Source of the DNA: Methylocystaceae bacterium
Lineage (GTDB): Bacteria; Pseudomonadota; Alphaproteobacteria; Rhodospirillales; Terasakiellaceae
NCBI GenBank assembly: GCA_013373205.1
Contig: JABXIG010000003.1
Coordinates: forward strand, 1,033,853 to 1,097,852
Direction: 5' to 3'
Length of the DNA: 64,000 bases
Below are positions 25,409 to 49,979 of this stretch, in pieces. The notes beneath the pieces were generated by a model, which did not search any database, was not told where the DNA came from, and worked only from the letters and a program-made list of their open reading frames with translations. Made by a program: the position numbers and the translations under genes. Each line of letters starts with the position of its first letter. The first letter of the stretch is position 1.

Positions 25409-25444
25409 CCCTTGTATATTTACTTAACGTTGGAGGTCGGACCC

Positions 25445-26764
25445 GTGCGGGCTCGTTATTTTTTAAGCAGCTGCGTCGGCGCCCTGATGGCGTTTTCTGT
25501 TAGCACACAATCCCAAGCTGCTAGCTTGGAAGCAGAACTTAGCGCTATGTTGGTTGAGCACCCGTCTTTGAAGGCTGCACAAAAAACCACAAAAGGGACG
25601 CAAGAATCTATTGATGTTGCGAAATCCGGCAACCTTCCAACTGTGGCATTCAATGCTGATTACGGGTATGAGTATATTACAAACCCATCAGAACGTGCGA
25701 ATTCAGATACCAAAAACGATTCAAGCCGGATGCGTGAAGTAGCAGGCTTGACTGTTACGCAAAATCTTTATGATGGAAATGCAACAACATCGGCCATTCG
25801 CTCTGCACGCTTGACATCAGAAGCCACTAAAAAAACGGAAGAAATCACCGAACAATCACTTATCCTTGAAGGTGTGACGGCATATCTAAACGTTCTAAAA
25901 CAATCCAGTCGGATCAAACATGCACGTGAGAATGAAGCGAACATCAAAAAACAGATGGAGCTTGAAAATGAACGTGTTCGCCGTGGGTCTGGTATTGGCA
26001 TTGATGTCCTGAACGCAAAATCACGTCTACAGACTGCGATTGAAAAACGCGTTGAGTATGAAGGTGAACTGGCCAAAGCAACAGATCAATATATCCAGAT
26101 ATTTGGTCATGCTCCCGATCTGGCAGCCATGATCGCCCCTTCACCACCTTTAAATTATTTGCCTGAATCATTGGAAGATGCGATTGAAATAGCAGTTCGC
26201 AACAATCCTAATGTTCAGAAATCAGAATTTGATGCTGAATTGGCTGATGAAAATAAAAGATCAATTGAGGCAGAATATCATCCTACAGTTGACCTCGTTG
26301 GCTCCTGGAACTTTGAAAACGACAAAAATGCCACTATCGGCACACGTCGCGACTATTCTGTTCTTGTCGAAGCAAACTGGGATCTGTTCAGTGGTTTCTC
26401 TACAGAATATTCCATGAAGAAAGCCGTTTACGATTATTCAGCGAGTAAAGACACCCTAAGCCATGTGACCCGCAAAATTGTTGAGGCAACACGTATTGCC
26501 TGGCATACCCTGGAAACCTCGCGGGAACGTTTGTCACTGGTTGAAAACGACGTCATCCTGAAAGATGAAATTTTCTTGTCAACACGTAAGCAACGTGAAT
26601 CCGGTGCCGAAGGCGTTGATGTTCTGAATGTGCTAGACCGTGAAAAAGAAGTCTATGAAGCCAAGATTAAATATGCTGAACTTTTCTATGACACACGTCA
26701 GGCTATCTACAGTGTGCTCATGACCACAGGGCAGTTAAGCCCAGAGGTTCTTGCACTAAACTAA
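25445..26764 (+). CDS. TolC-family outer-membrane protein, type I secretion candidate
   Basis: A 439-residue outer-membrane channel protein. GTG 25445 has GGAGG eight bases upstream and opens a signal peptide (VRARYFLSSCVGALMAFSV, cut after SQA). The two TolC repeats are visible, beginning ASLEAELSAMLVEHPSLKAA and SLEDAIEIAVRNNPNVQKSE, and the C-terminal part has SGAEGVDVLNVLDREKEVYE. It is not a close copy of the TolC at 18113. The nearest transport genes are the type I ABC exporter and HlyD protein 2.5 kb downstream on the same strand, so it probably completes that system. An opposed cyclase gene lies between. Confidence 0.88.
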   Translation: MRARYFLSSCVGALMAFSVSTQSQAASLEAELSAMLVEHPSLKAAQKTTKGTQESIDVAKSGNLPTVAFNADYGYEYITNPSERANSDTKNDSSRMREVAGLTVTQNLYDGNATTSAIRSARLTSEATKKTEEITEQSLILEGVTAYLNVLKQSSRIKHARENEANIKKQMELENERVRRGSGIGIDVLNAKSRLQTAIEKRVEYEGELAKATDQYIQIFGHAPDLAAMIAPSPPLNYLPESLEDAIEIAVRNNPNVQKSEFDAELADENKRSIEAEYHPTVDLVGSWNFENDKNATIGTRRDYSVLVEANWDLFSGFSTEYSMKKAVYDYSASKDTLSHVTRKIVEATRIAWHTLETSRERLSLVENDVILKDEIFLSTRKQRESGAEGVDVLNVLDREKEVYEAKIKYAELFYDTRQAIYSVLMTTGQLSPEVLALN

Positions 26765-26783
26765 TGCTAACCTTGTCCGTAAC

Positions 26784-26817
26784 AAAAAAGCCGCTGGGAA
26801 ATTCCAGCGGCTTTTTT
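26784..26817. terminator. Bidirectional terminator
   Basis: AAAAAAGCCGCTGG and CCAGCGGCTTTTTT form a perfect 14-bp stem with a GAAATT loop, between two convergent genes ending at 26764 and 26837. Poly-T follows on both strands. Confidence 0.92.
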
Positions 26818-26836
26818 GTTGGTCGTTGCGACAAGC

Positions 26837-29101
26837 TTATTTACTTGTCGCAATAAAGACACCATCCCAATCCGCACCCGGCGGGTTCTTTTCATAATCC
26901 TGCATACGTTCTTCATACAGATCATAAAGACCATGGTGTTCCATCTTTAAGCCGTCAATCATCTGATTAGCAGAAACAATCATCTCACGCACCTTCTCCC
27001 ATTGTTGATCACGATAGGCTTTTAACAGTTCTGCATGATGTTCTGCGTATTGAATAAAATCAGGTTTCTGCGCAACTTTATCATCACCAAGGACTGAGAA
27101 AATACGTACAGCTTCCGTCTTCCCTTTTACTTGAATAAGATCAAGTTCGATACAGGCAAGGTCTTGCACATTCTTATAAGTGCTTTCCCCGATTACGATT
27201 GTCACACCGTATGTTTTAGACTGCCCTTCCAGACGAGAAGCCAAGTTTACCGGATCCCCAAGGACGGAATAATCAAAACGTTGATCTGACCCCATGTTGC
27301 CGACACAACATACCCCAGTGTTAAGGCCAATCCCGATACGTAAAGGGATATGTGGACGACCTTCTTCTTCGGCTTCTTTTTCCAGTCGTTCATTGACCTC
27401 TACCAAACTATCAATCATTTCAAGGGCGGAAATACAGCCTTCCCTTTCATGGTTTTCAACATCCAGTGGTGCATTCCAGAACGCCATAATGCAGTCACCC
27501 ATATATTTATCGATAGTGCCTTGGCGGTTAAGGATTACGTTGGTCAATGGGGTTAGGAACTTGTTGATGAGCTTGGTCAAACCTTCTGCATCAAACAGTT
27601 CCGAAATTGATGTAAACCCACGAACGTCACAGAACAACAATGTCATGGAACGGTTTTCCCCACCCAACTTCAATCCGCTAGGGTCTTCGGCTAAACGTTC
27701 AACAAGGGCTGGTGACATATAGTGAGAGAAAGCAGAACGCACCTGTTTTTTCTGCGCCTCTTCTGCCGCATAGCCCATATAGGTTAATTGCACATAAATC
27801 CCCAAGGTAGAGATCATGGCAAACCCTGCATCGAAGAGCAGTTTTTGCTCACTAAATAGATACCAAGATGTAGCCCCTGACCCACCAGCAATCAGCGCAA
27901 ACAAAATCAACGTCCATTTCGCCCCGATCATTGGCACCAGAATAATCATGATTAAACCCGCACCTAATGTCAGCAGGAACTCTGCACCATTCATATTGTT
28001 CGGACGGCTCAAGAAAGCCTTATCGACTACAGACTCAATAACGTTTGCGTGAACTTCAACCCCGGGTAAAGTACCTTCAACCGGGGTAGCCCGGATATCA
28101 AGAAGACCAACAGCAGATGTCCCGACGATGATCAACTTTCCTTTGATCATTGCTGGATCAACCACACCAGACAGGACATCACGAGCCGAAACGTATTTTG
28201 CTTTGTCGTGTTTAGAGAAATGTGGCCAGACACGGCCCTTTTGGTCTGTTGGTAAAACCAGCCCTTTTGCAATGGCAACACTTTGGACACCATTCTGGTT
28301 GGTTGTTGCTAAAATTGTCCGCCGACCTGTTGCAACCCGCAGCATTTCAATCGCAAGACCTGTATATATATTGTTATCAAATTGAAAGAGCGTGGGAACA
28401 CGTCGCACGATACCGTCCGTTTCCGGAAACAGGGAGAAAAAACCATGGCCAGCCGCGACTTCTTCAATTTCCGGGACGTTTCGGACCAATGACGGCAGGA
28501 TGGGAACAAAGCGATGTGGCTTTTCTCCTCTAAAGCCAATGGATTTTTTTACGGGTGGGCGATGGACTTGATCTTCAATTTCACGATCAAAGCCTGCTTG
28601 GCCTAACACCACACGGGTTTGTTTAATAATATTCGCAAAATATTCATCATTACTGGGCAGTTTGCGTAGTTCAGCTTCTAGCGCAGCATCAAGCCCGGTT
28701 ACGTTATCTGCAATTTTGCTAGGCGACAGGCGGTCTGGTTCTGGAAACGCCATATCGAATGCGACCACCCCAGCCCCCATTCTAAAGAGGTTGGCAACCA
28801 TATCGCCAACAGTTGAGCGTGGCCACGGCCATTGACCGATGGTTGCCAGACTTTCTTCGTCCAAATCTACAATCGTAACCGGACGGCTGATCACTTCACG
28901 CGGTTGGGCGCGTTGATACATGTCGAACGTTTTGTTACGCATAAACTCAAGTGGGTAAGGATTTACCACCTGAATTGCCAACAAACCTAATAAAAGAAGA
29001 AAACCCGTTAGACGAGTCATAGAAAAGAATTTGCGAATTCTCCCCGGTTTCTTTTTTTCTTTTTTCACCTTATCTGCCACAGCCAAAATCCCCTTATCCA
29101 T
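26837..29101 (-). CDS. CHASE2-domain adenylate cyclase (class III)
   Basis: A 754-residue membrane sensor that would make cAMP. A basic N-terminus precedes a first membrane helix (TGFLLLLGLLAIQVV), then a periplasmic CHASE2 domain (about 50-345, with RPVTIVDLDEESLATIGQWP), three membrane helices, and a cyclase domain from about 480. Metal-binding Asp residues occur in LLFCDVRGFTS and KYMGDCIMAFW; Lys in TIDKYMGD and Asp in VLGDPVN suit adenine, and NLASR gives the transition-state Asn and Arg. A C-terminal helical tail follows. The CHASE2 ligand is unknown. The gene is opposed to the type I secretion genes on both sides, facing a shared upstream region with the ABC gene. Confidence 0.9.
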   Translation of the reverse strand: MDKGILAVADKVKKEKKKPGRIRKFFSMTRLTGFLLLLGLLAIQVVNPYPLEFMRNKTFDMYQRAQPREVISRPVTIVDLDEESLATIGQWPWPRSTVGDMVANLFRMGAGVVAFDMAFPEPDRLSPSKIADNVTGLDAALEAELRKLPSNDEYFANIIKQTRVVLGQAGFDREIEDQVHRPPVKKSIGFRGEKPHRFVPILPSLVRNVPEIEEVAAGHGFFSLFPETDGIVRRVPTLFQFDNNIYTGLAIEMLRVATGRRTILATTNQNGVQSVAIAKGLVLPTDQKGRVWPHFSKHDKAKYVSARDVLSGVVDPAMIKGKLIIVGTSAVGLLDIRATPVEGTLPGVEVHANVIESVVDKAFLSRPNNMNGAEFLLTLGAGLIMIILVPMIGAKWTLILFALIAGGSGATSWYLFSEQKLLFDAGFAMISTLGIYVQLTYMGYAAEEAQKKQVRSAFSHYMSPALVERLAEDPSGLKLGGENRSMTLLFCDVRGFTSISELFDAEGLTKLINKFLTPLTNVILNRQGTIDKYMGDCIMAFWNAPLDVENHEREGCISALEMIDSLVEVNERLEKEAEEEGRPHIPLRIGIGLNTGVCCVGNMGSDQRFDYSVLGDPVNLASRLEGQSKTYGVTIVIGESTYKNVQDLACIELDLIQVKGKTEAVRIFSVLGDDKVAQKPDFIQYAEHHAELLKAYRDQQWEKVREMIVSANQMIDGLKMEHHGLYDLYEERMQDYEKNPPGADWDGVFIATSK

Positions 29102-29263
29102 GCAGAAACTTTTAGCTATGACAACAGTTCATCCCCACAAGGTCAAGAAAACATGTGTATTTATGAAAAAATAAACGAGTAAAACAAACTTATAGTGTCG
29201 TTTTTTGAATCATTTTGCGTTACCTTTCCAGTCTATAAGAATAACTACGTACCGGAATCGATA

Positions 29264-31096
29264 ATGCTGCCTAAAAGTTTTGACTGGCTTAAGCCTATCA
29301 TCAAGCCCCTGATGAAGACTTTCCGTGAAGTCATGGGAATGTCGTTTTTCGTCAATATGCTGGCTTTGGTCGTTCCTGTCTTTGTCTTACAAGTCTATGA
29401 CCGTGTCGTTTTTCACGCAGGGATCGAAACCTTGCAAGGCTTGGTTATAGGCGTTTTATTGGTTTTGTTATTTGACTATTCTTTACGTCAAGCAAGATCA
29501 AAGGTTATGCAGCGTGTCGCGCTTAAGATCGATGTCGAAGTCGGGCGAAAACTATTTAAACAATTTACCCAAGTCCCATTACAAACTTTGGAAAGCAAGC
29601 CCGCTGCTTATTGGCAGACCTTGTTTCGGGATGTCGATACGGTCCGCAACACCTTAAGTGGCGGTACCGCTATTTTGCTTGTTGACCTGCCCTTTGTCTT
29701 TTTGTTTCTAGGCCTCATTCTGATGCTGGCTTTACCCATTGCTTGGGTATTTCTAATCATCCTGCCCTGCTTTTTATTTGTGGCATGGCGTTCCGGGAAC
29801 GTGATGAACGCCGCCAATCAGGAAGAAAAGAAAACCACCCTCAGCCGTGATGACCTGATTGCTGGTGTCATTGCCGGGCGGACAACCATCAAAGCCCTTG
29901 CAATGGATAAAACCTTGGAAGGCACATGGGAAGACCGCCACGCTGACAACATTGAAAATTCAATCATCCGCGGGGGCAAAGCAGATGCTTATACCAACTT
30001 GGGTCAAACCCTAACCCTGATGACCACCATTTCTTTGACCACCGTTGGGGCAATTGCCATCATTAATCAGGAACTGACCATGGGAGCATTGATCGCCACC
30101 AACATGTTGTCCGGTCGCTTACTTGGCCCGATGAACCAGCTTGTTGGTTCTTGGCGTGCCTTTGCCGGCTTTAAACAGTCTGTTGAGCGACTGGGACAAT
30201 TATTTGAGCTGCCTATTGAACGCCAAACCAGCGAAGTCAAAATGAACCGCCCTCAAGGTCACATCAGTCTTGATAAAGTGACATTTAAATATAGTGAGGA
30301 ATTAGAACCTGTTGTTGATGGCGTTAGTTTCAGCTTAAAACCCGGGGCATTAACCGCCTTGGTTGGTAGAAATGGCAGTGGTAAAACCACCCTCATTAAA
30401 CTTATTCAAGGGTTATACATCCCTCAAAGCGGGCGTGTACTTCTGGATAAAGCGGATATCAAACAATTCACTCGCTATGAACTCGCCAGCTGGATTGGTT
30501 ATGTGCCTCAAGAATGCGCTTTGTTGCATGGTACCGTGCGTGAAAACCTTGTATTTTCCAGACCTGAGGCCAGTGATGATGAAATTATCGAAGCCTGTAA
30601 AGCAACCGGCGTTCATGAAACCATCATCGATTTACCCGAAGGTTACGGCAGTGACATTGGTGAAGCCGGGCGCAGATTATCCGGCGGGCAGAAACAACGT
30701 TTGACCATTTCACGTGCCTTATTGGGTAATCCGCCCGTTTTGCTTTTGGATGAACCTTCCGGCAGTCTTGATCGTCAGGCTGAAGAAGAATTGCGTGATC
30801 TTTTGGCAAATTTGGCAAAAGACCACACAATTATCTTAGTAACCCACAGCCCTGTCTTACTTGGTGCCTGCGCAAATATGATTGTGATGGATCATGGTCG
30901 CGTTGCTCTGGCGGGGCCTACAAAAGATGTATTGCCCAAACTGGCCGCAAGTGCGCAAGCTAAAAAGAAAGAGGCGGCACCAGCTGTTTCAAAGCCCCAA
31001 GCCAAACCAGCTCCTCCTGCACCACAACCAGCAAAACCCGTAAGTGCACCAGTACAACAACCTAAAGCCCCTGCCCCGGCTATTAATAAAGGGTAG
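29264..31096 (+). CDS. Type I secretion ABC exporter (PrtD/LapB-like permease-ATPase)
   Basis: A 610-residue inner-membrane exporter. It begins with a membrane domain (about 20-310) without a C39-type peptidase domain, as in PrtD. The ATPase domain has Walker A GRNGSGKTT, signature RLSGGQKQRLTISRA, Walker B VLLLDEPSGSLD and switch His LVTHSPVLL. The last 50 residues are a Pro/Ala/Lys-rich tail (APAPAINKG end), unusual for the family. ATG 29264 has CGGA at good spacing; a GTG at 29195 would add 23 residues that do not look like a domain. The HlyD partner begins 7 bp later. No RTX substrate is nearby. Confidence 0.9.
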   Translation: MLPKSFDWLKPIIKPLMKTFREVMGMSFFVNMLALVVPVFVLQVYDRVVFHAGIETLQGLVIGVLLVLLFDYSLRQARSKVMQRVALKIDVEVGRKLFKQFTQVPLQTLESKPAAYWQTLFRDVDTVRNTLSGGTAILLVDLPFVFLFLGLILMLALPIAWVFLIILPCFLFVAWRSGNVMNAANQEEKKTTLSRDDLIAGVIAGRTTIKALAMDKTLEGTWEDRHADNIENSIIRGGKADAYTNLGQTLTLMTTISLTTVGAIAIINQELTMGALIATNMLSGRLLGPMNQLVGSWRAFAGFKQSVERLGQLFELPIERQTSEVKMNRPQGHISLDKVTFKYSEELEPVVDGVSFSLKPGALTALVGRNGSGKTTLIKLIQGLYIPQSGRVLLDKADIKQFTRYELASWIGYVPQECALLHGTVRENLVFSRPEASDDEIIEACKATGVHETIIDLPEGYGSDIGEAGRRLSGGQKQRLTISRALLGNPPVLLLDEPSGSLDRQAEEELRDLLANLAKDHTIILVTHSPVLLGACANMIVMDHGRVALAGPTKDVLPKLAASAQAKKKEAAPAVSKPQAKPAPPAPQPAKPVSAPVQQPKAPAPAINKG

Positions 31097-31103
31097 AAAT
31101 ATC

Positions 31104-32393
31104 ATGTCGAGATTAGATACACTTGTAGCTGCCAATCCCGTCCAATCCAAAAACCCCCTTGTCTTTGGTGTTATCGGTTTGCTTATCGCCTTTATCGTCT
31201 GGAGTTTCTTTGCCTATCTTGAAGAAGTCTCCGTCGCTATGGGGGAAGTCGTTCCACAAGGTAAAGTCAAAGTCATTCAACACCTTGAAGGTGGGATCAT
31301 CACCGATATCCATGTTCAAGAAGGTGATATGGTCAGAAAAGACAGTGAACTTGTCCAACTTGACCTTGGGACAGGCGGTGTAAATAAGGAAGAATTGGAA
31401 GTTAGACTGGATGGGCTTTTCTTAAATCGCGAACGATTAAATGCAGAGGCCAACGATACAGACCTTGTCCTGCCCAAAGAGATTGTTGAGCATCGTCCCG
31501 CGATGGCTGCGGCGGTCGAACGGTCTTATCAAGCGCGCCTGCGTGATTTAAATTCACGTTTAAATGTCCTTAAAGATAAAGTGCGCCAGAAAGAACTTTC
31601 AGTTAAAGAGCTGGAACAAAAACTGGACAATACTGAACGCGACCTAACCTTATCCAAACGACGCTTTCGTATGTCAACGGACCTGTTGAATGACAAGCTT
31701 ACGTCAAAAATGGATCACCTGAAGCTCGAGTCAGAAGTACAAAAGCTGGAAGGCGAATTACGCACCCTTAAATCTTCGATCCCTAAAGCAAAAGCAGCTA
31801 TGCGCGAAGAATTATCCAAGATAGATGAAGAAAAAACCGCCTTTCAGCGCGAAGCCCTAGAAGAACTCGGAACTGTTGAACAGACAATTGCCCAGACTCA
31901 AGAACTGCTGTCAAAAGCAACGGATCAAGGTATTCGCGCCTTAATCAAAAGCCCGATTGATGGCGTTGTTAAAAACATGACCTACAATACAATCGGTAAC
32001 GTTGTCACTGCTGGGGAACCGATTATGGAGATTGTTCCCATTGGGGAAAATCTGGTGATTGAAGCTCGCCTGAACCCGATTGACCGAGGTTATGTCGAAG
32101 AAAATCAAGATGCGGTCGTCAAAATCAACACGTATGACTTTGTGCGTTACGGCAGCCTTGATGGCAAGGTGATCCATGTTGCACCCGATTCGACCACAAC
32201 CCAAGAAGGCGAAACCTATTTTAGGGTAATTGTGCAAACAGAAAAAACATACCTAGGTGACAAGGAAGGCGTCTATGCCATTACACCAGGTATGGAAGCC
32301 ACGGTAGACATTCATACGGGGGAAAAATCCGTCATTGAATATCTTATTAAACCTGTATTAAAGATGAAGCATGAAGCTTTCAGAGAAAGATAA
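31104..32393 (+). CDS. HlyD-family membrane fusion protein of type I secretion
   Basis: Bridges the ABC exporter to the outer-membrane channel. The 429 residues contain one membrane helix (PLVFGVIGLLIAFIVWSFFA, about 19-38), a split lipoyl domain (VIQHLEGGIITDIHVQEGD and ALIKSPIDGVVKNMTYNTIG), a long coiled coil (about 125-280) that builds the periplasmic hairpin, and the C-terminal barrel with RFRVIVQTEK-like text (YFRVIVQTEKTYL). The start ATG follows GGGTAG within 7 bp of the ABC stop, so both are cotranscribed. Confidence 0.92.
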   Translation: MSRLDTLVAANPVQSKNPLVFGVIGLLIAFIVWSFFAYLEEVSVAMGEVVPQGKVKVIQHLEGGIITDIHVQEGDMVRKDSELVQLDLGTGGVNKEELEVRLDGLFLNRERLNAEANDTDLVLPKEIVEHRPAMAAAVERSYQARLRDLNSRLNVLKDKVRQKELSVKELEQKLDNTERDLTLSKRRFRMSTDLLNDKLTSKMDHLKLESEVQKLEGELRTLKSSIPKAKAAMREELSKIDEEKTAFQREALEELGTVEQTIAQTQELLSKATDQGIRALIKSPIDGVVKNMTYNTIGNVVTAGEPIMEIVPIGENLVIEARLNPIDRGYVEENQDAVVKINTYDFVRYGSLDGKVIHVAPDSTTTQEGETYFRVIVQTEKTYLGDKEGVYAITPGMEATVDIHTGEKSVIEYLIKPVLKMKHEAFRER

Positions 32394-32494
32394 TTGCTAA
32401 ATGCGTTATCGTTTTGTTAGTATTTTGCATGCATAATACTGTGTAATAGCTTATTATGTAACGAATTTGTAAGAATGAAACAGAAGGCAAAACC

Positions 32495-33295
32495 ATGTCG
32501 TTTGCAACGATTGTAGGGATTATTGGCGGGATCGGCCTCTTCGTCGGGGCCATCCTGTTAAGTACAGATAACTTCCTGATGTTCTTGGATTTGCCAAGTT
32601 TCATTATGGTTATCGGTGGTACCTTTTCAGCCACCTTTGTTTCTTACGAACCACGTTATGTCTTTATGGCTATCAAACTGATTGGGCGTCTTGTTTTCGC
32701 CCCGAAAGTTGCACGTAATATTCTAACAGCAGAAGTTGGACGCATTATCAAATGGGGCTACACCGTACAAAAAAACGGGATCCCCGCTCTGGAGGCTGAA
32801 TCTAAAAAAGCTGCAAAAGCAGATCGTTTTTTAGGTTTTGGTATTGAAATGGTCATCAGCGGCTATACGGGCACAGAAGTCCGTGAAATTCTGACAAACA
32901 CCATTGAAACGACATTTGTACGTAATACTATTCAGGCCAATATCTTGCGCGCCATTGCCGCCACCTGCCCCGCCTTCGGTATGATCGGCACATTGATCGG
33001 TCTGATCATTATGCTGGATGGTATGGGTGGTGATCCCAGCCAATTGGGTGCGGGTCTTGCTGTTGCGCTTCTGACGACCCTATATGGTGTGTTATTTGCC
33101 CGTATGATCTTTTTGCCAGCAGCAAATAAAATTCAGCAACGAGAAGAGATCGTGCGCTTTAGAAACTATCTGGTCGCTGAAGGCCTGTGCCTTCTAGCAG
33201 ACCGCAAAAGCCCACGTTATATTCAAGACCGTATGAACAGCTTCCTTGACCCAGCCATTCACTACAACCTTGATAAAATGATGAAACGTAAATAA
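32495..33295 (+). CDS. MotA/PomA-family ion-channel protein
   Basis: A 266-residue membrane protein with four membrane helices. The start TIVGIIGGIGLFVGAILLS and the segment PAFGMIGTLIGLIIMLDGM, with Pro before helix 3, are near-identical in style to PomA; VALLTTLYGVLFARMIFLP is helix 4. MotA-type proteins, with MotB, convert ion flow into mechanical work, normally at the flagellar motor. No other flagellar gene is in the window; it lies 101 bp after the HlyD gene and 17 bp before its MotB-like partner. It may therefore energise something else, perhaps the type I exporter (see findings). AAGG precedes ATG 32495. Confidence 0.9.
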   Translation: MSFATIVGIIGGIGLFVGAILLSTDNFLMFLDLPSFIMVIGGTFSATFVSYEPRYVFMAIKLIGRLVFAPKVARNILTAEVGRIIKWGYTVQKNGIPALEAESKKAAKADRFLGFGIEMVISGYTGTEVREILTNTIETTFVRNTIQANILRAIAATCPAFGMIGTLIGLIIMLDGMGGDPSQLGAGLAVALLTTLYGVLFARMIFLPAANKIQQREEIVRFRNYLVAEGLCLLADRKSPRYIQDRMNSFLDPAIHYNLDKMMKRK

Positions 33296-33312
33296 GGATT
33301 TGAGGTAGACAC

Positions 33313-34095
33313 ATGCCACCTCCAGCCCCCAAGGAAGAACCAGAAGACGAATCATGGCTTGCGACCTATGCCGATGCCATTACGCTGCTTATGGCTTTCT
33401 TTGTGTTGTTGGTGGCCGTTTCTAAAGTTGACCTTGCCCTTTATGAAGAAGTCGCCGAAGGTATCAACGAACAGGTCAACAAGAAAGAACGACAAGCACC
33501 GTCTAAAAACCTAAAAGACGAAGCTGCTGAAATCGTTCAGGAAATGACTGACGGTAAAGTCTTAAAGCTTGGCGTTGATGACAGCGGTATCGTGCTGGAA
33601 TTTGATAGTTCTACTTTCTTCAAACCCGGTACAGCTGAAATCATCGAAGCTGCCTACCCTATTATTGCCTCATTGGCTGAACTGGTAAATGCACCACAAT
33701 ACGCTATGTTCAATATGGATATCGAGGGGCATACAGATGATGACCCGATCAGCACATTACAGTTTCCGTCAAACTGGGTGCTGGGTGCAGCACGATCTGC
33801 CTCTGTGTTAAACGTTTTGAATGAAAATGGTGTAGATGTAAAACGGATGCGTGTTCTTTCTTATGCAGCCACCCGTCCGAAAGTTCCAAACCGAATGGAC
33901 GATGGTACACCGATCCCGGAAAACAAAGCGCAAAACCGTCGCGTGGTCTTACGTATTCACCAGAAACCTTTTGAATATTCTCCACCAAAATATGTGCCTG
34001 TCACCTCTATTGCGCGTGATTACGACCCTACACAGGATCAACCTGCACAAGAGACACCACAAGAACAAGATCCTGCGCAGCAGTCACAAGAATAA
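33313..34095 (+). CDS. MotB-like stator protein with OmpA domain
   Basis: A 260-residue partner of the MotA-like protein. After a Pro/Glu-rich start comes WLATYADAITLLMAFFVLLV, the single membrane helix with the ion-binding Asp (about residue 21). A linker follows, then a peptidoglycan-binding OmpA-like domain from about 110 (FNMDIEGHTDDDPI, LGAARSASVLNVLNENGV, and NRRVVLRI). A Gln/Pro-rich tail ends the protein. The catalytic layout is complete, so the pair should conduct protons or sodium. GAGG precedes ATG 33313. Confidence 0.9.
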   Translation: MPPPAPKEEPEDESWLATYADAITLLMAFFVLLVAVSKVDLALYEEVAEGINEQVNKKERQAPSKNLKDEAAEIVQEMTDGKVLKLGVDDSGIVLEFDSSTFFKPGTAEIIEAAYPIIASLAELVNAPQYAMFNMDIEGHTDDDPISTLQFPSNWVLGAARSASVLNVLNENGVDVKRMRVLSYAATRPKVPNRMDDGTPIPENKAQNRRVVLRIHQKPFEYSPPKYVPVTSIARDYDPTQDQPAQETPQEQDPAQQSQE

Positions 34096-34110: not shown

Positions 34111-34932
34111 TTAAATTTCGACTTCCATAAAGTCTTTTGCGGCAAAGCAATGGGGCCATTCTGCCATCGCTTTTGCCTCAATTTCACGCATGATCTCATC
34201 TGTATGTTCTGGATCATGATGGAATAAGGCCAGTCTTTTTACATTCGCGGCCTTACACAGTCGAATAGCTTCCTGCCATGTAGAATGCCCCCAACCAATC
34301 TTGGCTTCGAAAGTTTCATCACTATAGGTCGTATCATAAATGACAAGATCAGCGCCTTCAATTAGACCCAAAACATTCTGGTCTGGTTTGCCTATTACAT
34401 GTTCTGTATCAGTGACATAACATACTGCCTGACCTTCATATTCAATTCGATAACCTGTTGCCCCATTAGGATGATTGAGCGGGGCTGTTTTTACATTCAC
34501 TCCATCATAAAATGAAAACTGGTCTCCTGCCCTGAAATCTTCAAAGGTCAGGTTTGCCTGCATCACTTCCAACGGGACAGGAAATGTCGGGTTTGCCATC
34601 TGATTGGCTAGAACCTGCCGAATCCCACCTAATTCAATGAGGTGACCCGCCATCACATGAAAGCTGTTACCGGGCACATAAGCTGGTGTAAAGAAGGGAA
34701 AACCATTGATATGGTCCCAATGGGTATGTGTTAGTAAAAGGTGCGAATTTTTGTGGCCGGATTTTAAAAGTTCCTGACCCAGATTACGAATACCTGTACC
34801 AGCATCCAATATAAAACGGTAATCACCCGCTTTTACCTCGATACAGCTCGTATTGCCGCCATATTCTACATGTTCAGGTGATGGACAAGCAATCGATCCC
34901 CGGACACCCCAAAATTTAACAGCGAAAGTCAT
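34111..34932 (-). CDS. MBL-fold metallo-hydrolase
   Basis: A 273-residue metallo-beta-lactamase-fold enzyme. The opening KFWGVRGSIACPSPEHVEYG with GGNTSCIEV is typical of one large subfamily; LLTHTHWDHINGFPFF is the HxHxDH metal motif, CYVTDTEH and LVIYDTTYSDE give further ligands and ALFHHDPEHTDE the last His. Substrates in this subfamily are mostly unknown; some related proteins cleave cyclic nucleotides. It ends 15 bp from the MotB-like gene, on the opposite strand, and follows the DUF62 gene after 96 bp. A link to the cAMP cyclase nearby is only a guess. Confidence 0.85.
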   Translation of the reverse strand: MTFAVKFWGVRGSIACPSPEHVEYGGNTSCIEVKAGDYRFILDAGTGIRNLGQELLKSGHKNSHLLLTHTHWDHINGFPFFTPAYVPGNSFHVMAGHLIELGGIRQVLANQMANPTFPVPLEVMQANLTFEDFRAGDQFSFYDGVNVKTAPLNHPNGATGYRIEYEGQAVCYVTDTEHVIGKPDQNVLGLIEGADLVIYDTTYSDETFEAKIGWGHSTWQEAIRLCKAANVKRLALFHHDPEHTDEIMREIEAKAMAEWPHCFAAKDFMEVEI

Positions 34933-43741: not shown

Positions 43742-44839
43742 CTAGTTTTTTGTAGGTAAAATCACACGAAAGACAGACCCTTGACCCAGCTTACTTTCAA
43801 CCTGTAACCTTCCGCGATGGCGAGCAATGATATGCTTTACAATGGCTAAGCCCAAGCCAGTTCCACCAAGTGTACGTGAACGTGCTTTATCAATCCGGTA
43901 AAAACGCTCCGTCAGGCGGGGTAAATGTTCTTCATCGATCCCTTCCCCATGATCCCGAACATCCACCGAGATGGCTGGCACATTTCTGTCCGGCATCCGG
44001 TCTAGTGTATGAATATTAATATCAACGACTGTATTGGTTTTACCATACTTAATGGCATTATCTATAAGGTTTTGAAAAACCTGCGTAATTTGATCTGAAT
44101 CCCCCCGAATCCAATATTCTTTATTCTTTGGCGCATTAAGCTTTAGTGTCATTTGGCGATTTTCTGCTTTGAGAGATAGAATATCGACAATGTTCTGCAA
44201 GACGACATTTAAGTTTACTTCATCATCAGGGGCAACATGTTCCTGAATTTGCACCCGAGACAGGGACAAAAGATCATCAATTAAACGCGCCATACGATTG
44301 GCTTCCTGAATCATAATGTTCAGAAAACGCTCCCGAGCGTCACGGTCATCTTGCGCAGGGCCTTGTAATGTCTCGATAAATCCCATTAGAGCTGATAAAG
44401 GTGATCGTAATTCATGACTAACATTTGCGACAAAATCGGAATGCATTTCCTCTGTACGTTTAACGATTGTCGTATCACGAACAGTCAGCACAACCCCTTC
44501 CCCATCCTTAATTAAGGCTACATGCAAGCTGAGGTGTCGTTCAACGGGTGCCGGAAATTTGACTTCTCCAACCCAATCTTTTTTGCTGGCAAAAACTTTT
44601 TCAACAGCATCGACAACATGCGGTTGGCGTAAACATTGTACGATATTACGTCCGATCAAAACACGGCCAAAAAGCTTTAATGCCGCATTGTTTGCGTGTT
44701 TTACAACACGTTCTTTATCAAGGATCAATATGGGATCAGCCAAAGCTGCAATAACAGCGCCACTGTCATTGATGGCAGAGACCGCCAAAGGTTTTTCAAC
44801 CCGCGGAATTGTTTCTGCTTTTTTCTTACGGAACAACAC
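43742..44839 (-). CDS. phoR: Phosphate regulon sensor kinase PhoR, without membrane helices
   Basis: A 365-residue histidine kinase for PhoB. A PAS domain occupies about residues 25-120 (ADPILILDKERVVKHANNAA), followed by the H box FVANVSHELRSPLSALMGFI, N box LIDNAIKYG, and ATP-lid motifs DHGEGIDEEHL and GTGLGLAIVKHI. E. coli PhoR has N-terminal membrane helices; none is visible here, so it may be cytoplasmic and receive its signal only through PhoU/Pst. It starts MLFRKKKAET, and the stop lies just before the Pho box of pstS. Confidence 0.9.
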   Translation of the reverse strand: MLFRKKKAETIPRVEKPLAVSAINDSGAVIAALADPILILDKERVVKHANNAALKLFGRVLIGRNIVQCLRQPHVVDAVEKVFASKKDWVGEVKFPAPVERHLSLHVALIKDGEGVVLTVRDTTIVKRTEEMHSDFVANVSHELRSPLSALMGFIETLQGPAQDDRDARERFLNIMIQEANRMARLIDDLLSLSRVQIQEHVAPDDEVNLNVVLQNIVDILSLKAENRQMTLKLNAPKNKEYWIRGDSDQITQVFQNLIDNAIKYGKTNTVVDINIHTLDRMPDRNVPAISVDVRDHGEGIDEEHLPRLTERFYRIDKARSRTLGGTGLGLAIVKHIIARHRGRLQVESKLGQGSVFRVILPTKN

Positions 44840-44923: not shown

Positions 44924-47900
44924 TTATGAAAACTCTTCTTCAACACGGGCCCATTCCAGCGGCACCTGTCCACCATGACAGGGTTTTGCATATAAGAACC
45001 CCTGTACTATGTTACAATTTATAGACTGAAGAAATTCGACCTGTTCTTTGTTTTCCACACCTTCTGCAACAATACTGATCCCGAGTTCATGTGCCATTGA
45101 AACAATAGCAGACACAATGGCCGCATCATCATTGCCCGGTTTCAGGTCACTGACGAAAGACTGGTCGATCTTGAGAATATCAACAGGAAAACGTTTGAGG
45201 TAATTTAAAGAAGAATAGCCAGTGCCAAAGTCATCAATAGATATGGTCAGGCCCATCTCTTTGAGATCCTGTAAGATCTGAATTGCACCTTCCACATCTT
45301 CCATCATCATATTTTCTGTAACTTCCACCTCCAGCATATCACTTGTGATGTGATGATCTTCCATGGCCTCTTTTATATCGGTGATTAGGTTTCGGTCTCT
45401 GAACTGTTGTGCTGACAAGTTAATGGCAACGGTGCCAAAATCAAATTGCATGTCCTGCCACATCCGGGCCTGAATACAACATTGCTGAATGATTGCTGTT
45501 CCCAAACGAACAATCAAGCCATTTTCTTCGGCCACTGGGATAAAATCAGCAGGTGATATCTGTTTGCCATAATCATCTGTCCAACGCGCGAGAGCTTCCA
45601 CACCAACAGGCTTGCCGCTTTTGCAATCGACTTTAAGCTGATAATGAGGAATGATCATGTTTTTATTCAACGCGATGCGTAGCTGATTAGCAAGTGACAG
45701 CTGATTTTGTACCTGATCATTCATCGTCACATTAAAGAACTGGTAATTATTTCGACCTTTTTCTTTCGCATGATACATCGCCACGTCAGCATTGCGTAAC
45801 AAATCGGCACTATTATCGCCATCTGTTGGATAAATTGCGATGCCTACACTTGCTGAAATAAAGAGTTCATGCCCTTCAAAGAAATACGGCGCCCCAACAG
45901 ATTTAACAATGCGGGTTGCCACCATTTCGATATCTTCATCGCTGGTAAGATCTGTAAGAATAACCGTAAACTCATCTCCCGACAGTCGTGCCACCGTATC
46001 AATTTCGCGCACACTTGTTTGCAATCGTTTAGACACTTCCTTAAGCAGCAAATCACCGACCCGATGACCAAGTGAATCATTGACTTGTTTAAAGCGATCA
46101 AGATCCACAAACAAAACGGCCAAATGTTCTTTATCTCTTTTGGAGCGAGCCAGAGATGTATAAAGCCGATCCTGAAACAACACCCGGTTAGGAAGACCTG
46201 TTAAAGGGTCAAAATGGGCAAGTTGTTCAAGTTTTTCTTCATTTTGTTTTTTGCCTGTGATGTCAGAAAACACAGCTACATAATTCGCGATGCGCCCGCT
46301 ATCGGCACGCGAAGCACTGATCGACAGCATTTTGGGGAATTCTTCGCCATTCTTGCGCCGATCCCATATTTCACCTCGCCACAGGCCGTTTTGCATTAAC
46401 TCCTGCCACATCTCTTGATAAAATTCTGTCGAATGGCGACCAGATTTCATCATACGCGGATTTTGACCAATGACTTCTTCACGGGCATAGCCTGTAATGT
46501 CAGTAAAGGCGGTGTTGACATCAACAATATCACCTTTGTCATCCGTAATCATGATGGCTTCAACCGCACTGTCAAATACCTTTGCAGCCAAACGCAGGCG
46601 CTTTTCTGCCAATCGACGATCTGTAATATCCTGGCCTTGGGCAACCCCTCCAATAATATTTTCCTTGCTGTCATAAAGGGGGGATAGGTTCCAGACATAG
46701 AATTTGTTCGTGTGGTCAATTTTCAGAACGGTCTCAAGAGCCTGCGTATTTTTACCTTTTTTGGCATTTTCTAAAGACTGAATAATTTGGGTATTATTTT
46801 GCAGACGTAAAATAGTGTCTACGTCCTGCAAGTTTTCAAGACTACCAAAAACATCAAGCGCGGCCTGGTTTTGAAGTGTTATCTTGTCTTTACCATCCCA
46901 CGCAAAGGTTGGAGAATTAGTCGCATTAACTAAATCAACAATATATTTAGACTGTTCAGATAAATGGTCGACAAGATCGCTCAGCACTGCGCCAACTTCA
47001 TTAAATTCAACAAACGAGCCGTTCCTGTATGTCGTCTGTTCATCTCCCTGACGAACAGCTTGGGCAAAACTTAACAGTTTCTGCAATGAATTGTGAATTA
47101 AACGACGTAGAAAGAAGGTACCCAGAATCGCAATAAACAAAACGAACTGAATACCTAAGATAGCAGATTTTCGAAAAGAACCACCCCAAGTTTGGGTCCC
47201 TTCAGATGTCATCACAGAAACAAGAAAAAGGCCTCTTGGACCATTTTCAATTTTCAAAGGATGAAAATCGCCGCTAAAAACATTTTCCTGTGTCGAAAAA
47301 ATGGGGCCAAACTCTTGCATGATCTGATCCCGAACCAATGACACACCCGGTTCTAGAGATGTTGATTCCGCAATCACATTACCATCGTAAACAATTAGAT
47401 GGGCATTTGCATTGCTTACGCTTCGTAGTTCATTAATCAAGGGCGTATTATTTTTAAGAAAAATACCGGCCTTAAAAATCCGTACACCTTTATAGCCACT
47501 ACTATCTTTAAAAATTTTCTGAAACTGATAGCTCAGGGAAAGGCCACGTTCTGTTTTTTCAAGAAACCAACGCTTGTTTTGTGAAAGTATTGTTTTAGAA
47601 GCAGGTGTGACTAAACCAAAGCTATTTTCCACAACAGGTTCTTCATTTATTTTTTTATCAAATACAATAAAATAATCCCAGACCATATCCTGAAAGAAAT
47701 GATTAGGAATCCCCATCTGTTCACGAGGCATTGCTGAAGCAACCGTTTCCAGTAATTTTCGGCTTTCTTCAATTTTATAGTTAAAATGTTGTTCTGCTAG
47801 TTTATGGGTTTGTTCAACTTGGTTTAATTGTTCAAACTGCAGTGCCGTTTCCGCATTCTTATAGGTCGTCCAAAGCAAAAAGCTGCCGACGCACATTAAC

Positions 47901-47947
47901 GCGCCCATAAAAAAAAACAAAACGACCGGAGTAAACCGGAAAATCAT
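44924..47947 (-). CDS. Membrane GGDEF/EAL c-di-GMP enzyme with PAS domains
   Basis: A 1007-residue signalling protein. A first membrane helix (VVLFFFMGALMCVGSFLL), a periplasmic sensor of about 230 residues and a second helix (LFIAILGTFFLRRL) precede two PAS domains (near 350-450 and 465-575). The GGDEF domain has VDLDRFKQVNDSLGHRVGD and RLSGDEFTVIL, an SGDEF variant compatible with cyclase activity. The EAL domain has VEALARW, DDFGTGYSS and AEGVENKEQ, so hydrolysis of c-di-GMP also looks possible. It is divergently placed from the PAS kinase at 48063. Its signal is unknown. Confidence 0.93.
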   Translation of the reverse strand: MIFRFTPVVLFFFMGALMCVGSFLLWTTYKNAETALQFEQLNQVEQTHKLAEQHFNYKIEESRKLLETVASAMPREQMGIPNHFFQDMVWDYFIVFDKKINEEPVVENSFGLVTPASKTILSQNKRWFLEKTERGLSLSYQFQKIFKDSSGYKGVRIFKAGIFLKNNTPLINELRSVSNANAHLIVYDGNVIAESTSLEPGVSLVRDQIMQEFGPIFSTQENVFSGDFHPLKIENGPRGLFLVSVMTSEGTQTWGGSFRKSAILGIQFVLFIAILGTFFLRRLIHNSLQKLLSFAQAVRQGDEQTTYRNGSFVEFNEVGAVLSDLVDHLSEQSKYIVDLVNATNSPTFAWDGKDKITLQNQAALDVFGSLENLQDVDTILRLQNNTQIIQSLENAKKGKNTQALETVLKIDHTNKFYVWNLSPLYDSKENIIGGVAQGQDITDRRLAEKRLRLAAKVFDSAVEAIMITDDKGDIVDVNTAFTDITGYAREEVIGQNPRMMKSGRHSTEFYQEMWQELMQNGLWRGEIWDRRKNGEEFPKMLSISASRADSGRIANYVAVFSDITGKKQNEEKLEQLAHFDPLTGLPNRVLFQDRLYTSLARSKRDKEHLAVLFVDLDRFKQVNDSLGHRVGDLLLKEVSKRLQTSVREIDTVARLSGDEFTVILTDLTSDEDIEMVATRIVKSVGAPYFFEGHELFISASVGIAIYPTDGDNSADLLRNADVAMYHAKEKGRNNYQFFNVTMNDQVQNQLSLANQLRIALNKNMIIPHYQLKVDCKSGKPVGVEALARWTDDYGKQISPADFIPVAEENGLIVRLGTAIIQQCCIQARMWQDMQFDFGTVAINLSAQQFRDRNLITDIKEAMEDHHITSDMLEVEVTENMMMEDVEGAIQILQDLKEMGLTISIDDFGTGYSSLNYLKRFPVDILKIDQSFVSDLKPGNDDAAIVSAIVSMAHELGISIVAEGVENKEQVEFLQSINCNIVQGFLYAKPCHGGQVPLEWARVEEEFS

Positions 47948-48062
47948 TATGCGCCCTTTCGTGACCTTTTTCTATAAGCTACACTGTGAATCCAAGCTCG
48001 CCAAGTCTGAGATCGTTTTTTTCTGCATAAATCCCTATAATTTTCAATCGTCGCTATACACA

Positions 48063-49979
48063 ATGAAAAACAACGAAAAAAAATCTGAACGTTCAGAACC
48101 CCAACAGATGCAAATGCATTCTCCAGAAGCAGAACGTCTCAGACGACTTGAAACATGTGCAAACCTTGGCATGATTGAGTGGAATATAGAAAATGGAACC
48201 TTTTGGTGTTCAGAACAGATCTGCCCTATTTTGGATATCAAAGACACAACACCCGATAATTTTCAGTCATTCATCGGTTTCTTTCATCCCACTGACCAGA
48301 TAAACGTTCAAAAAGCCTTTGAACAGATCACACAGGACCGAGCCCCCTTTCAAATAACCAGTAAAATCATAACAACATCAGGTTCTGAAACCCCTATCCT
48401 CTTAAAAGGCACCCATAATGAAAGCCTGCCTGGGATTATTGGATATATCCAAGACATAAGCTCTGATTTTCAAGAACGCGAATCCCTGTTGGGTACCCTG
48501 GCAAAATATCGTGGGGTCATGGACAGTGCGGGCGATGCGATCATTCTAATTTCGCAAAAAGGTACAATCCTGGAAGGAAACCCCAAGGCTTGCGAACTTC
48601 TTGAAGTCAGTGAAACAGAAATATCCAATTTGAGCGTTGATGACATCCACAAAGCAGAAAGCCTTGAGGTCATGATGGGGCATTATCAAGGCATGATCTG
48701 GGGGCAAACCGAACGTGTGGAAAGTACGATCCTTGGCCAAAAAGGCAAAGAAACAATTGTCGAAATTACGGGACGCCCAGTTACAATTGCCTCACATGAA
48801 ATGATCGTAGTCATTTATCATGATGTTACTCTGCAATATCAGGCTCAAAATGCCCTAAAACGCAGTGAACAACGCTATCGCAGCTTGGTAGACGAAGCAC
48901 GCGAGGGCATATTATTGCTGAATGAAAACGGTAAAATTCTAGCTGCTAATCCCAAAGTTTGTGAAAGCTTGAAGATAAAAAGGCGAAACCTGCTCAATCA
49001 TAACTTTCTGGAAATCGCAGATTTTGATCTAGATCTCAGCCCGATTGAAATATTAACTAAATCTTCAAAGCGTCAGTCTATTCATATGGAAGGCCACTTG
49101 ATCACCAAGCATAATGAAATGCTACCAACCGGATTTAACGTTGCGCGATATATAGAACAAGGCAAGGTCCGATACAGTGTGACCGCTTATGATCTTAGCG
49201 AAGTCCGCGCAGGTGAGGAAGACCGACTGCAATTACAGAAACAATTGTTTCAATCGCAAAAACAAGAACTCATGGGTCAGCTAGCCGGAAGTTTGGCCCA
49301 TGATTTTAACAACCTTCTTTCCCCTATTCTGCTGGTCAGTGAAACCCTGATGGAAGATACTGAAGAAGACCCATTCTTAAAGAAGAACCTTGGCAACATC
49401 AATCAGGCTGCCCAACGTGCGCGCCGACTTGTTGCACGAATTTTAGAATACACGCGCCCAGAAGACAGCAGTCCAAAACTGTTAAATCTAAAATCAGAGA
49501 TTTCTGAAACTCTCTCGCTTCTTCGTGCCTCAGTCCCACAAAGCATTCAGATTACGGATAGCTTTAGTCATGAAAGCTATCGCTGTTTTGCGGATCCCGA
49601 TCAAATTCATCAGGTCATTATGAATGTAGGGACAAATGCTGCTCAGGCGATTGGTGAAGAAACAGGTCATATTCATTTTTTGATCGAAAAAATCGACATT
49701 ACTGAAAAATGCCCCTTAATGAAAATTCACGAAATCCCAGAAGGCAATTATGCTAAAATTAGCATTTTCGATGATGGCCCCGGTTTTGATGAAAAACATC
49801 TAAATGAAATTTTTGAACCTTTCTTCACCACAAAAACCCAAACAGATGGCACAGGACTTGGGCTTTCCGTCGTAAAAAGAATCATTTCAAATCATGGTGG
49901 ATGCGTAGAAGCTTATAATCAAAACAATGGAGGGGCCTGCCTTTGTCTCTACCTTCCCTTAATAGGGGAGCTGAAATGA
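48063..49979 (+). CDS. PAS-domain sensor histidine kinase
   Basis: A 638-residue soluble kinase. Up to three PAS-like segments (about 30-130, 145-260 and 265-375) lead to an H box of the NtrB type, GSLAHDFNNLLSPIL, an N box (MNVGTNAAQAIGEE) and ATP motifs DDGPGFDEKHL and GTGLGLSVVKRI. No membrane helix is present. ATG 48063 is used; the longer reading from 47949 starts two bases from the divergent gene and looks non-coding. Its end overlaps the response-regulator start (ATGA), marking a cognate pair. Confidence 0.9.
   Translation: MKNNEKKSERSEPQQMQMHSPEAERLRRLETCANLGMIEWNIENGTFWCSEQICPILDIKDTTPDNFQSFIGFFHPTDQINVQKAFEQITQDRAPFQITSKIITTSGSETPILLKGTHNESLPGIIGYIQDISSDFQERESLLGTLAKYRGVMDSAGDAIILISQKGTILEGNPKACELLEVSETEISNLSVDDIHKAESLEVMMGHYQGMIWGQTERVESTILGQKGKETIVEITGRPVTIASHEMIVVIYHDVTLQYQAQNALKRSEQRYRSLVDEAREGILLLNENGKILAANPKVCESLKIKRRNLLNHNFLEIADFDLDLSPIEILTKSSKRQSIHMEGHLITKHNEMLPTGFNVARYIEQGKVRYSVTAYDLSEVRAGEEDRLQLQKQLFQSQKQELMGQLAGSLAHDFNNLLSPILLVSETLMEDTEEDPFLKKNLGNINQAAQRARRLVARILEYTRPEDSSPKLLNLKSEISETLSLLRASVPQSIQITDSFSHESYRCFADPDQIHQVIMNVGTNAAQAIGEETGHIHFLIEKIDITEKCPLMKIHEIPEGNYAKISIFDDGPGFDEKHLNEIFEPFFTTKTQTDGTGLGLSVVKRIISNHGGCVEAYNQNNGGACLCLYLPLIGELK

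Follow-up and report, generated by a model that had tools for sequence, protein, structure and literature searches.

A flagellar-type MotAB pair encoded with a type I exporter in an alphaproteobacterial order: a candidate motor for adhesin retention

In Salmonella, the MotB- and MotA-like proton-channel proteins SiiA and SiiB are encoded in SPI-4 together with SiiCDF, the type I exporter of the giant adhesin SiiE. According to passages of two reviews (PMC6272769, PMC12607715), SiiE secretion continues without siiA or siiB while invasion falls and surface retention changes, uncoupling lowers the amount of SiiE at the surface, and SiiF binds SiiB in two-hybrid tests. A passage of the first review makes retention depend on the N-terminal coiled coil of SiiE (PMC6272769); passages of both place SiiAB in retention and release and call its use of the proton-motive force (PMF) on the half-exported adhesin unclear. 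In excerpts of other work, the pentamer–dimer (5:2) motors, ExbBD, TolQR and ZorAB among them, form one superfamily (PMC12204202), and the adhesin LapA is controlled by LapG cleavage (PMC13090378). Here we analyse a MotAB pair encoded behind a type I exporter in a 64,000-nucleotide stretch of the 4.09-Mb genome of a marine Methylocystaceae bacterium, hereafter the window (G000:C59:1033853-1097852, where G codes stand for genomes, G000 being the window's own, and L codes for fetched loci). A sequence-only reading of this DNA had noticed the arrangement, invoked the SiiAB/SiiE precedent, which the reviews bear out, and proposed that the pair powers or gates export or retention of a large surface adhesin. 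Its observation is confirmed and its interpretation partly supported; powering or gating of export by the pair is hypothetical.

The locus resembles SPI-4 in that proton-channel proteins of MotB and MotA type are encoded with a type I exporter, in that the B subunit carries a peptidoglycan-binding domain, and in the presence of a giant adhesin, here a candidate. Unlike in SPI-4, the candidate adhesin gene lies outside the operon and none is found in the window, the ABC protein has no N-terminal C39-like domain of the kind reported for SiiF, the A subunit is a flagellar-type stator, and the host belongs to the Alpha- rather than the Gammaproteobacteria. Fold, torque-interface helices, channel residues, MotB Asp, plug and OmpA domain are shared with PomAB and MotAB, from which the pair differs in forming its own clade, in having lost the equivalent of the rotor contact R90, in being encoded with an exporter in its order, and in having no core flagellar gene alongside. 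With ExbBD, TolQR and ZorAB it shares membership of the superfamily of PMF-driven 5:2 motors, its A subunit being far closer to flagellar stators than to ExbB or TolQ. We judge the chances to be about even that a flagellar-type motor has been recruited here to control adhesin retention, and we favour this reading over that of an accessory flagellar stator held beside the exporter by inherited gene order.

An exporter–MotAB block conserved within the order

The plus strand of the window carries genes for a TolC-family outer-membrane channel (25412..26764; TIGR01844, 245 bits, above cut-off), a type I secretion ABC exporter (29195..31096, likely start 29264; identified by profile matches), an HlyD-family periplasmic adaptor (31044..32393, likely start 31104; TIGR01843, 374 bits, above cut-off), a MotA/PomA-like channel subunit with torque-interface helices and Gln at the R90 equivalent (32495..33295; PF01618), and a MotB-like subunit with a transmembrane Asp21, a plug region, an OmpA peptidoglycan-binding domain and an extra C-terminal tail (33313..34095; MotB_plug and OmpA matches). 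These profile matches agree with the sequence-only reading, which left unmentioned a 754-residue CHASE2-domain adenylate cyclase gene on the minus strand (26837..29101; PF05226 5e-55, PF00211 2e-18) that separates tolC from the ABC gene and is divergent from the latter. MotA starts 101 bases past the HlyD end, and a promoter/terminator scan, which is not decisive, found no terminator-like site between the two. The tolC gene occupies the same place in all five other Terasakiella members fetched. For the ABC protein, which ends in a P/A/K-rich C-terminal tail, the best type I secretion system (T1SS) models were LssB, PrtD and HlyB, every one below its cut-off; the LssB and HlyB matches start from positions 130 and 127 of the respective models, and neither these nor the Pfam search revealed an N-terminal peptidase-like (C39-like) domain.

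How widely is this order kept? In a sample of 60 genomes of the same bacterial order, own genome included, 37 have a MotA orthologue with at least about 52% identity across nearly the whole protein, and three MotA fragments (G010, G022, G027) were counted as further carriers; other stators in these genomes show 28–39% identity. Flanks were fetched for 39 order loci, three of which (L081–L083) are fragmentary or lie at contig ends. In 31 of the 39 loci, from 20 coded families, the gene immediately before MotA, in the same orientation, is HlyD; the ABC–HlyD–MotA–MotB order is conserved in relatives. Because the arrangement recurs to this extent it is not due to chance, and a chance neighbourhood is ruled out. 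The recurring block is wider still, running cyclase, ABC, HlyD, MotA, MotB, metallo-β-lactamase (MBL)-fold hydrolase and an S-adenosylmethionine (SAM)-dependent gene. The cyclase lies upstream of the ABC gene in 26 of the 31 linked loci, with four of the remaining five stopping at a contig edge, and it is also found upstream in unlinked exporter cassettes of other orders. The CHASE2 cyclase is thus a conserved part of the exporter cassette, and a tie between cyclic AMP (cAMP) and adhesin export is possible.

Named relatives of the window MotA with 92–95% identity are those of Terasakiella brassicae and T. pusilla, from which we take the genus to be Terasakiella. A MotA scan of named genomes returned eight loci, four in the linked order (Terasakiella and near), three away from an exporter (58%) and one remote, and a plasmid search gave three distant matches only. 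Searches of the open-licence PMC literature brought up SiiAB papers and general motor phylogenies, among others; judged by title and the opening of the abstract, none of the papers listed reports such a MotAB pair with an alphaproteobacterial exporter, and in the open-licence PMC literature searched no paper uses the terms CHASE2 and adenylate cyclase along with type I secretion.

The MBL-fold hydrolase gene (34111..34932, minus strand) is a frequent right-hand neighbour of MotAB with or without the exporter, and we treat it as a synteny marker, claiming no functional link to the pair; at L057 (13163-14849) it stands beside the pair in two tandem copies. The same window encodes a PAS-GGDEF-EAL protein (44924-47947) and PAS histidine kinases (43742-44839 and 47949-49979), and the remaining genes, judged by eye from the open reading frame (ORF) list, look mostly housekeeping. 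Neither that list by eye, nor tblastn with flagellar proteins of the own genome, nor Pfam on six doubtful ORFs (most other ORFs being unscanned) brought to light, within the 64 kb, any flagellar or chemotaxis gene other than the pair itself. To that extent the sequence-only reading holds for the window, although FliM/FliN genes and three further stator genes lie elsewhere in the genome. A six-frame scan for the RTX nonapeptide GGxGxDx[hydrophobic] found no match in the window, in line with the earlier statement that it holds no RTX substrate gene.

Stator features, flagella and the exporter

What kind of motor would the pair form? The AlphaFold 2 model of MotA (predicted local distance difference test, pLDDT, 83.7) has five helices between transmembrane helices 2 and 3, and its best PDB matches are the flagellar stators PomA and MotA (E 3e-11 to 2e-6; TM-score by query length 0.63–0.83), with ExbB and TolQ matching only at E above 1e-2. 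In the scheme of PMC12505986, so far as the part consulted sets it out, a torque interface of such size marks flagellar ion transporters, and R90 and E98 (E. coli numbers) are rotor contacts. P151, T158 and T186 (PomA numbering) are invariant across 60 rows of the window-type MotA clade, and the MotB Asp, residue 21 here, is kept in all 59 MotB rows (31 linked to an exporter, 28 free). No chain named SiiA appears among the 41 PDB matches of the window MotB at E<=1. By sequence and predicted structure the pair is stator-like, having the fold of flagellar stators, an unbroken set of channel residues and the ion-binding Asp, and the view that it stands close to true stators is upheld.

The clade is monophyletic in the MotA tree (100/100 support), apart from FliN-adjacent and PomA-like stators; the tree program flags long branches that join at the root. 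At the R90 column, Arg is found in 21 of 21 paralogous stators and Gln in 32 of 32 linked clade members, while the 28 free members have Gln in 19, Lys in 8 and Arg in 1. Arg is accordingly lost in 59 of 60 clade members (51 Gln, 8 Lys), and of the two rotor contacts R90 is lost though E98 is kept. In FliN-adjacent stators the reverse is seen: Arg is kept at R90 and Gln stands at E98 in 10 of 10 (L010 7858-8664, L211–L213, L217, L218, L222, L224–L226). The C-terminal tails of MotB, compared wherever the NRRV motif is clear (29 linked rows, 23 free), are longer in linked members (p=8e-9), and the tails of the ABC protein are longer in linked loci than in exporters of pair-less genomes (p=9e-6). 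Common descent could account for both. Fast-changing P/A/K-rich ABC tails of up to 354 residues are seen at L061 (7243-9999) and other linked loci. Used as a marker of the pair, the ABC tail is valid for linked loci and fails for unlinked ones.

At class level we sampled 289 alphaproteobacterial genomes, 23 of which carry a clade MotA at E<=1e-60. An HlyD match at E<=1e-90 was found in 24 genomes and both in 10, so that HlyD is present in 10/23 carriers and in 14/266 others (p=1.3e-6; 9/22 carriers and p=6.7e-6 with the own genome excluded). At E<=1e-120 the figures are 7/23 and 10/266 (p=9e-5; 7 of 17 HlyD genomes are carriers). Counted by family, the two sets of 15 and 19 have 9 in common, on an assumed total of 143 estimated from codes. 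With a FliMN_C match standing for flagella, though without proof of a whole flagellum, the pair goes with HlyD in 9/14 against 12/116 of FliMN-positive genomes of at least 2.5 Mb. In the order sample, 34 genomes have pair and HlyD, 6 the pair alone and 5 HlyD alone; FliMN is present in 40/40 carriers, and all six genomes lacking FliMN lack the pair. The pair thus goes both with the exporter, even where the two are unlinked, and with flagella. Persistence of the gene order without flagellar genes, which the sequence-only reading had raised, is not borne out, FliMN-less carriers numbering 1 of 23 in the class (G195, the sole class carrier with pair and exporter and no FliMN) and none of 40 in the order sample.

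Class HlyD loci were fetched for 18 of 22 genomes besides G000 and G026 (G082, G125, G197 and G279 were left out), and the split between cyclase cassettes and substrate-adjacent exporters was made after seeing the loci. In the unlinked carriers G195, G079, G219, G192, G121 and G298 the exporter is a TolC–cyclase–ABC–HlyD cassette with no neighbouring giant RTX gene in the stretch; in G342 the cassette is present without the pair, and in the carriers G308 and G147 the HlyD match lies beside RTX genes.

Several results weigh against a role in adhesin retention. FliM/FliN is found in 22/23 class carriers and 170/266 others (p=7e-4), and 13/23 carriers have no HlyD match; the HlyD threshold of 1e-90 also admits a paralogous exporter (own copy 1e-103), and since the genomes are related, the p-values overstate independence and serve as guides only. 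Outside the order, 0 of 19 informative pairs adjoin ABC–HlyD (20 loci, L190 offering only 67 bases upstream of MotA and hence no usable upstream sequence), and within it 5 of 39 loci have the pair without an adjoining ABC–HlyD, L080 with only 555 bases upstream among them. Conversely, ABC–HlyD stands next to the MBL gene with MotAB missing in G056, G035 and G051, the last two of one genus. The MBL and SAM-dependent neighbours are conserved as well, and simple inheritance of gene order might account for the whole block. ABC tails of unlinked carriers are no different (p=0.44). E98 is kept in 60/60 clade rows (E 54, D 6), as is the full torque interface, and the Lys of eight free members preserves the charge at R90. 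The MotA of G195 keeps Arg at this position, and as this is the carrier with pair and exporter and no FliMN, the loss of R90 is weakened as a mark of non-flagellar use.

Linkage is therefore broken in both directions within the order, with exporter and pair of G026 on different contigs, and it is absent among the pairs examined outside it. This rules out that exporter and pair always go together. On the MotA tree the linked state needs five changes and so is not a single clean gain.

Many of these results would be expected if the pair were an accessory flagellar stator that lies beside the exporter through an inherited block or through co-regulation in a switch from swimming to attachment. We regard this as a real possibility, if the lesser one, and as the strongest rival to the retention reading. 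Besides the company of FliMN, in 22/23 class and 40/40 order carriers, and the conserved MBL and SAM-dependent neighbours, it would explain the full stator fold with PomA/MotA as best matches, the free-standing pairs outside the order, and the finding that among 15 class carriers with a readable FliN–FlhA interval nine have no MotA there (L247–L253, L255, L256) and six do. An interval without MotA is found in G272, G201, G281, G117, G216 and G296. In the nine carriers the window-type clade might be the flagellar driver or main stator. An accessory stator would leave unexplained the loss of Arg at R90 in 59 of 60 members, the persistence of the exporter co-occurrence within FliMN-positive genomes, and the lack of FliF, FliG, FliN and FlhA near the pair in 62 clade loci. 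Nor is a further stator in short supply: the own genome has three others, and all eight relatives tested (PF01618, type by tblastn) have another, namely an E. coli-type MotA with MotB in G006, G008, G053, G026, G031 and G027, a FliN-type stator in G012 and a PomA-like one in G020. That the pair is the only stator is hereby ruled out for this genome and for the eight relatives tested.

It is also conceivable that the pair is a free-standing envelope motor, acting for example on peptidoglycan or the outer membrane, unrelated to flagella and exporter and only incidentally placed. The 28 clade members away from an exporter (L190 and L080 with their short upstream sequence among them) and the 10/23 class carriers in which, at the thresholds used, HlyD and the FecR module both go unmatched would suit such a motor. 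Co-occurrence above chance with both the exporter and FliMN speaks against it, however, and within about 5–7 kb around the 28 free loci no neighbour family recurs in more than five, the pair's own locus and an overlapping frame excepted. We consider this explanation unlikely.

Giant FecR-module/RTX proteins as candidate substrates

In one of the 39 order loci (L074, genome G034) an RTX gene adjoins the linked block: directly before the ABC gene lies the gene for a protein of 1,438 residues that begins with a FecR-like domain and also carries RTX repeats. At E<=1e-3, relatives of this N-terminal module are found in 52 genomes of the order sample of 60; many of them sit in frames of great length, up to an open frame of 14,707 residues in G001. 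The own genome encodes five FecR-module proteins at E<=1e-30. One of them, a giant FecR-module/RTX protein of about 7,350 residues, is encoded 29–51 kb beyond the right window end (L114 1-8957 and L115 4905-17999, minus strand in both loci); the giant adhesin gene presumed to lie elsewhere has candidates, with retention-like N termini, in the same genome. In its two pieces, the giant protein has the N-terminal module followed by cadherin-like, laminin-G-like (lectin-like) and RTX repeats, and it includes an Ala-rich region some 2,500 residues long. A scan confined to the first 300 residues matches the module to FecR at 1.5e-9, and a scan of the whole 2,985-residue piece matches no Pfam family.

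All six proteins scanned match the NCBIfam LapA retention model NF033682 at 25–43 bits, below the cut-off of 50, and weak BapA_N matches occur in 5 of 26 modules. In the AlphaFold 2 model of the module (pLDDT 83.4), FecR-type signalling domains are the best match (E 2.5e-6); behind them comes PDB 5ix9, a 'Cell surface anchoring domain' aligned over 62 columns at 0.8 Å with a weak Foldseek E of 0.008, which we take to come from the ice-binding adhesin of Marinomonas, where it would serve as anchor. The system resembles those of LapA and BapA in its TolC–HlyD–ABC exporter and in candidate substrates that combine similarity to the retention module and the BapA prefix with cadherin-like, lectin-like and RTX repeats. 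It is unlike LapA in that the LapG-type [TAP]AAG site is absent from the first 900 residues of four of the five own-genome proteins, the giant having a lone match at 849. Of LapA systems with a MotAB pair we know none. In four of the five own-genome proteins the module is followed by an Ala-rich stretch, mostly Ala/Glu/Gln by eye and composition, whose likeness to the N-terminal coiled coil of SiiE is suggestive only.

Distribution links these proteins to the exporter. The FecR module (E<=1e-30) is carried by 22 of 24 class genomes with HlyD (E<=1e-90) and by 23 of the 265 others, so this type of exporter and the proteins with the module belong together. Among the 39 HlyD-positive genomes of the order sample, all 34 that have the pair and two of the five that lack it encode a strong FecR module (E<=1e-40), and in the class the module occurs in 12/23 carriers and 33/266 others. 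To judge from these sequences, the exporter probably handles giant sticky surface proteins, and we infer that the window exporter could carry the protein of about 7,350 residues. The closest second type I exporter of the own genome (L120 3927-12312; ABC 46%, HlyD 41%) has a divergent FecR-RTX gene and TolC alongside; no MotAB was found in the stretch fetched around it, and it offers itself as a natural comparison.

Could the pair instead supply energy for export, using the PMF to boost the ABC exporter when its cargo is very long? Gene order and the giant candidate substrates, up to the 14,707-residue frame, would suit such a booster, but related exporters lie beside RTX genes in pair-less genomes, and SiiE secretion goes on without siiA/siiB in the review passages cited above (PMC12607715). 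We consider direct energisation of export very improbable. For the second of these reasons retention fits better than export, and by this analogy we favour an action on retention.

A proposed motor for holding and release

Sequence comparison establishes the exporter, the pair, their conserved order in related families and the giant FecR-module/RTX proteins in the genome. On this basis we propose the following model for the locus. The window would encode a retention-type T1SS cassette, made up of TolC, the CHASE2 cyclase, ABC and HlyD, with a dedicated PMF-driven MotA5MotB2 motor. The giant FecR-module/RTX proteins would be the substrates, and after export their N-terminal module and Ala/Glu/Gln-rich stretch would remain in the periplasm and channel. 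The MotAB motor, tethered to peptidoglycan through MotB and lacking the FliG contact normally made at R90, would sit beside the exporter, where ion flux would let it hold, tension or release an adhesin that is half exported, in the way proposed for SiiAB acting on SiiE. In this order a stator clade of flagellar type would thus have been recruited for an adhesin role, and its members in other parts of the class may still drive flagella. In its most specific form the proposal is that one large alphaproteobacterial order took over this rotary stator clade to hold or release adhesins, as the PMF-driven motor of a cAMP-associated type I giant-adhesin exporter, some lineages perhaps sharing the motor with the flagellum; we advance it tentatively, as one possible account short of a likely one.

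What would follow for these bacteria? Were the pair purely flagellar, it would represent a stator clade mostly without the conserved R90 rotor contact, which would be useful to motor specialists. If it does serve adhesin retention, the question of how SiiAB-type proteins use the PMF would become testable outside a pathogen, in bacteria like Terasakiella and with named candidate substrates, and the order would harbour a widespread, flagellar-stator-based version of such a system, in which a part of the flagellar motor has changed its job.

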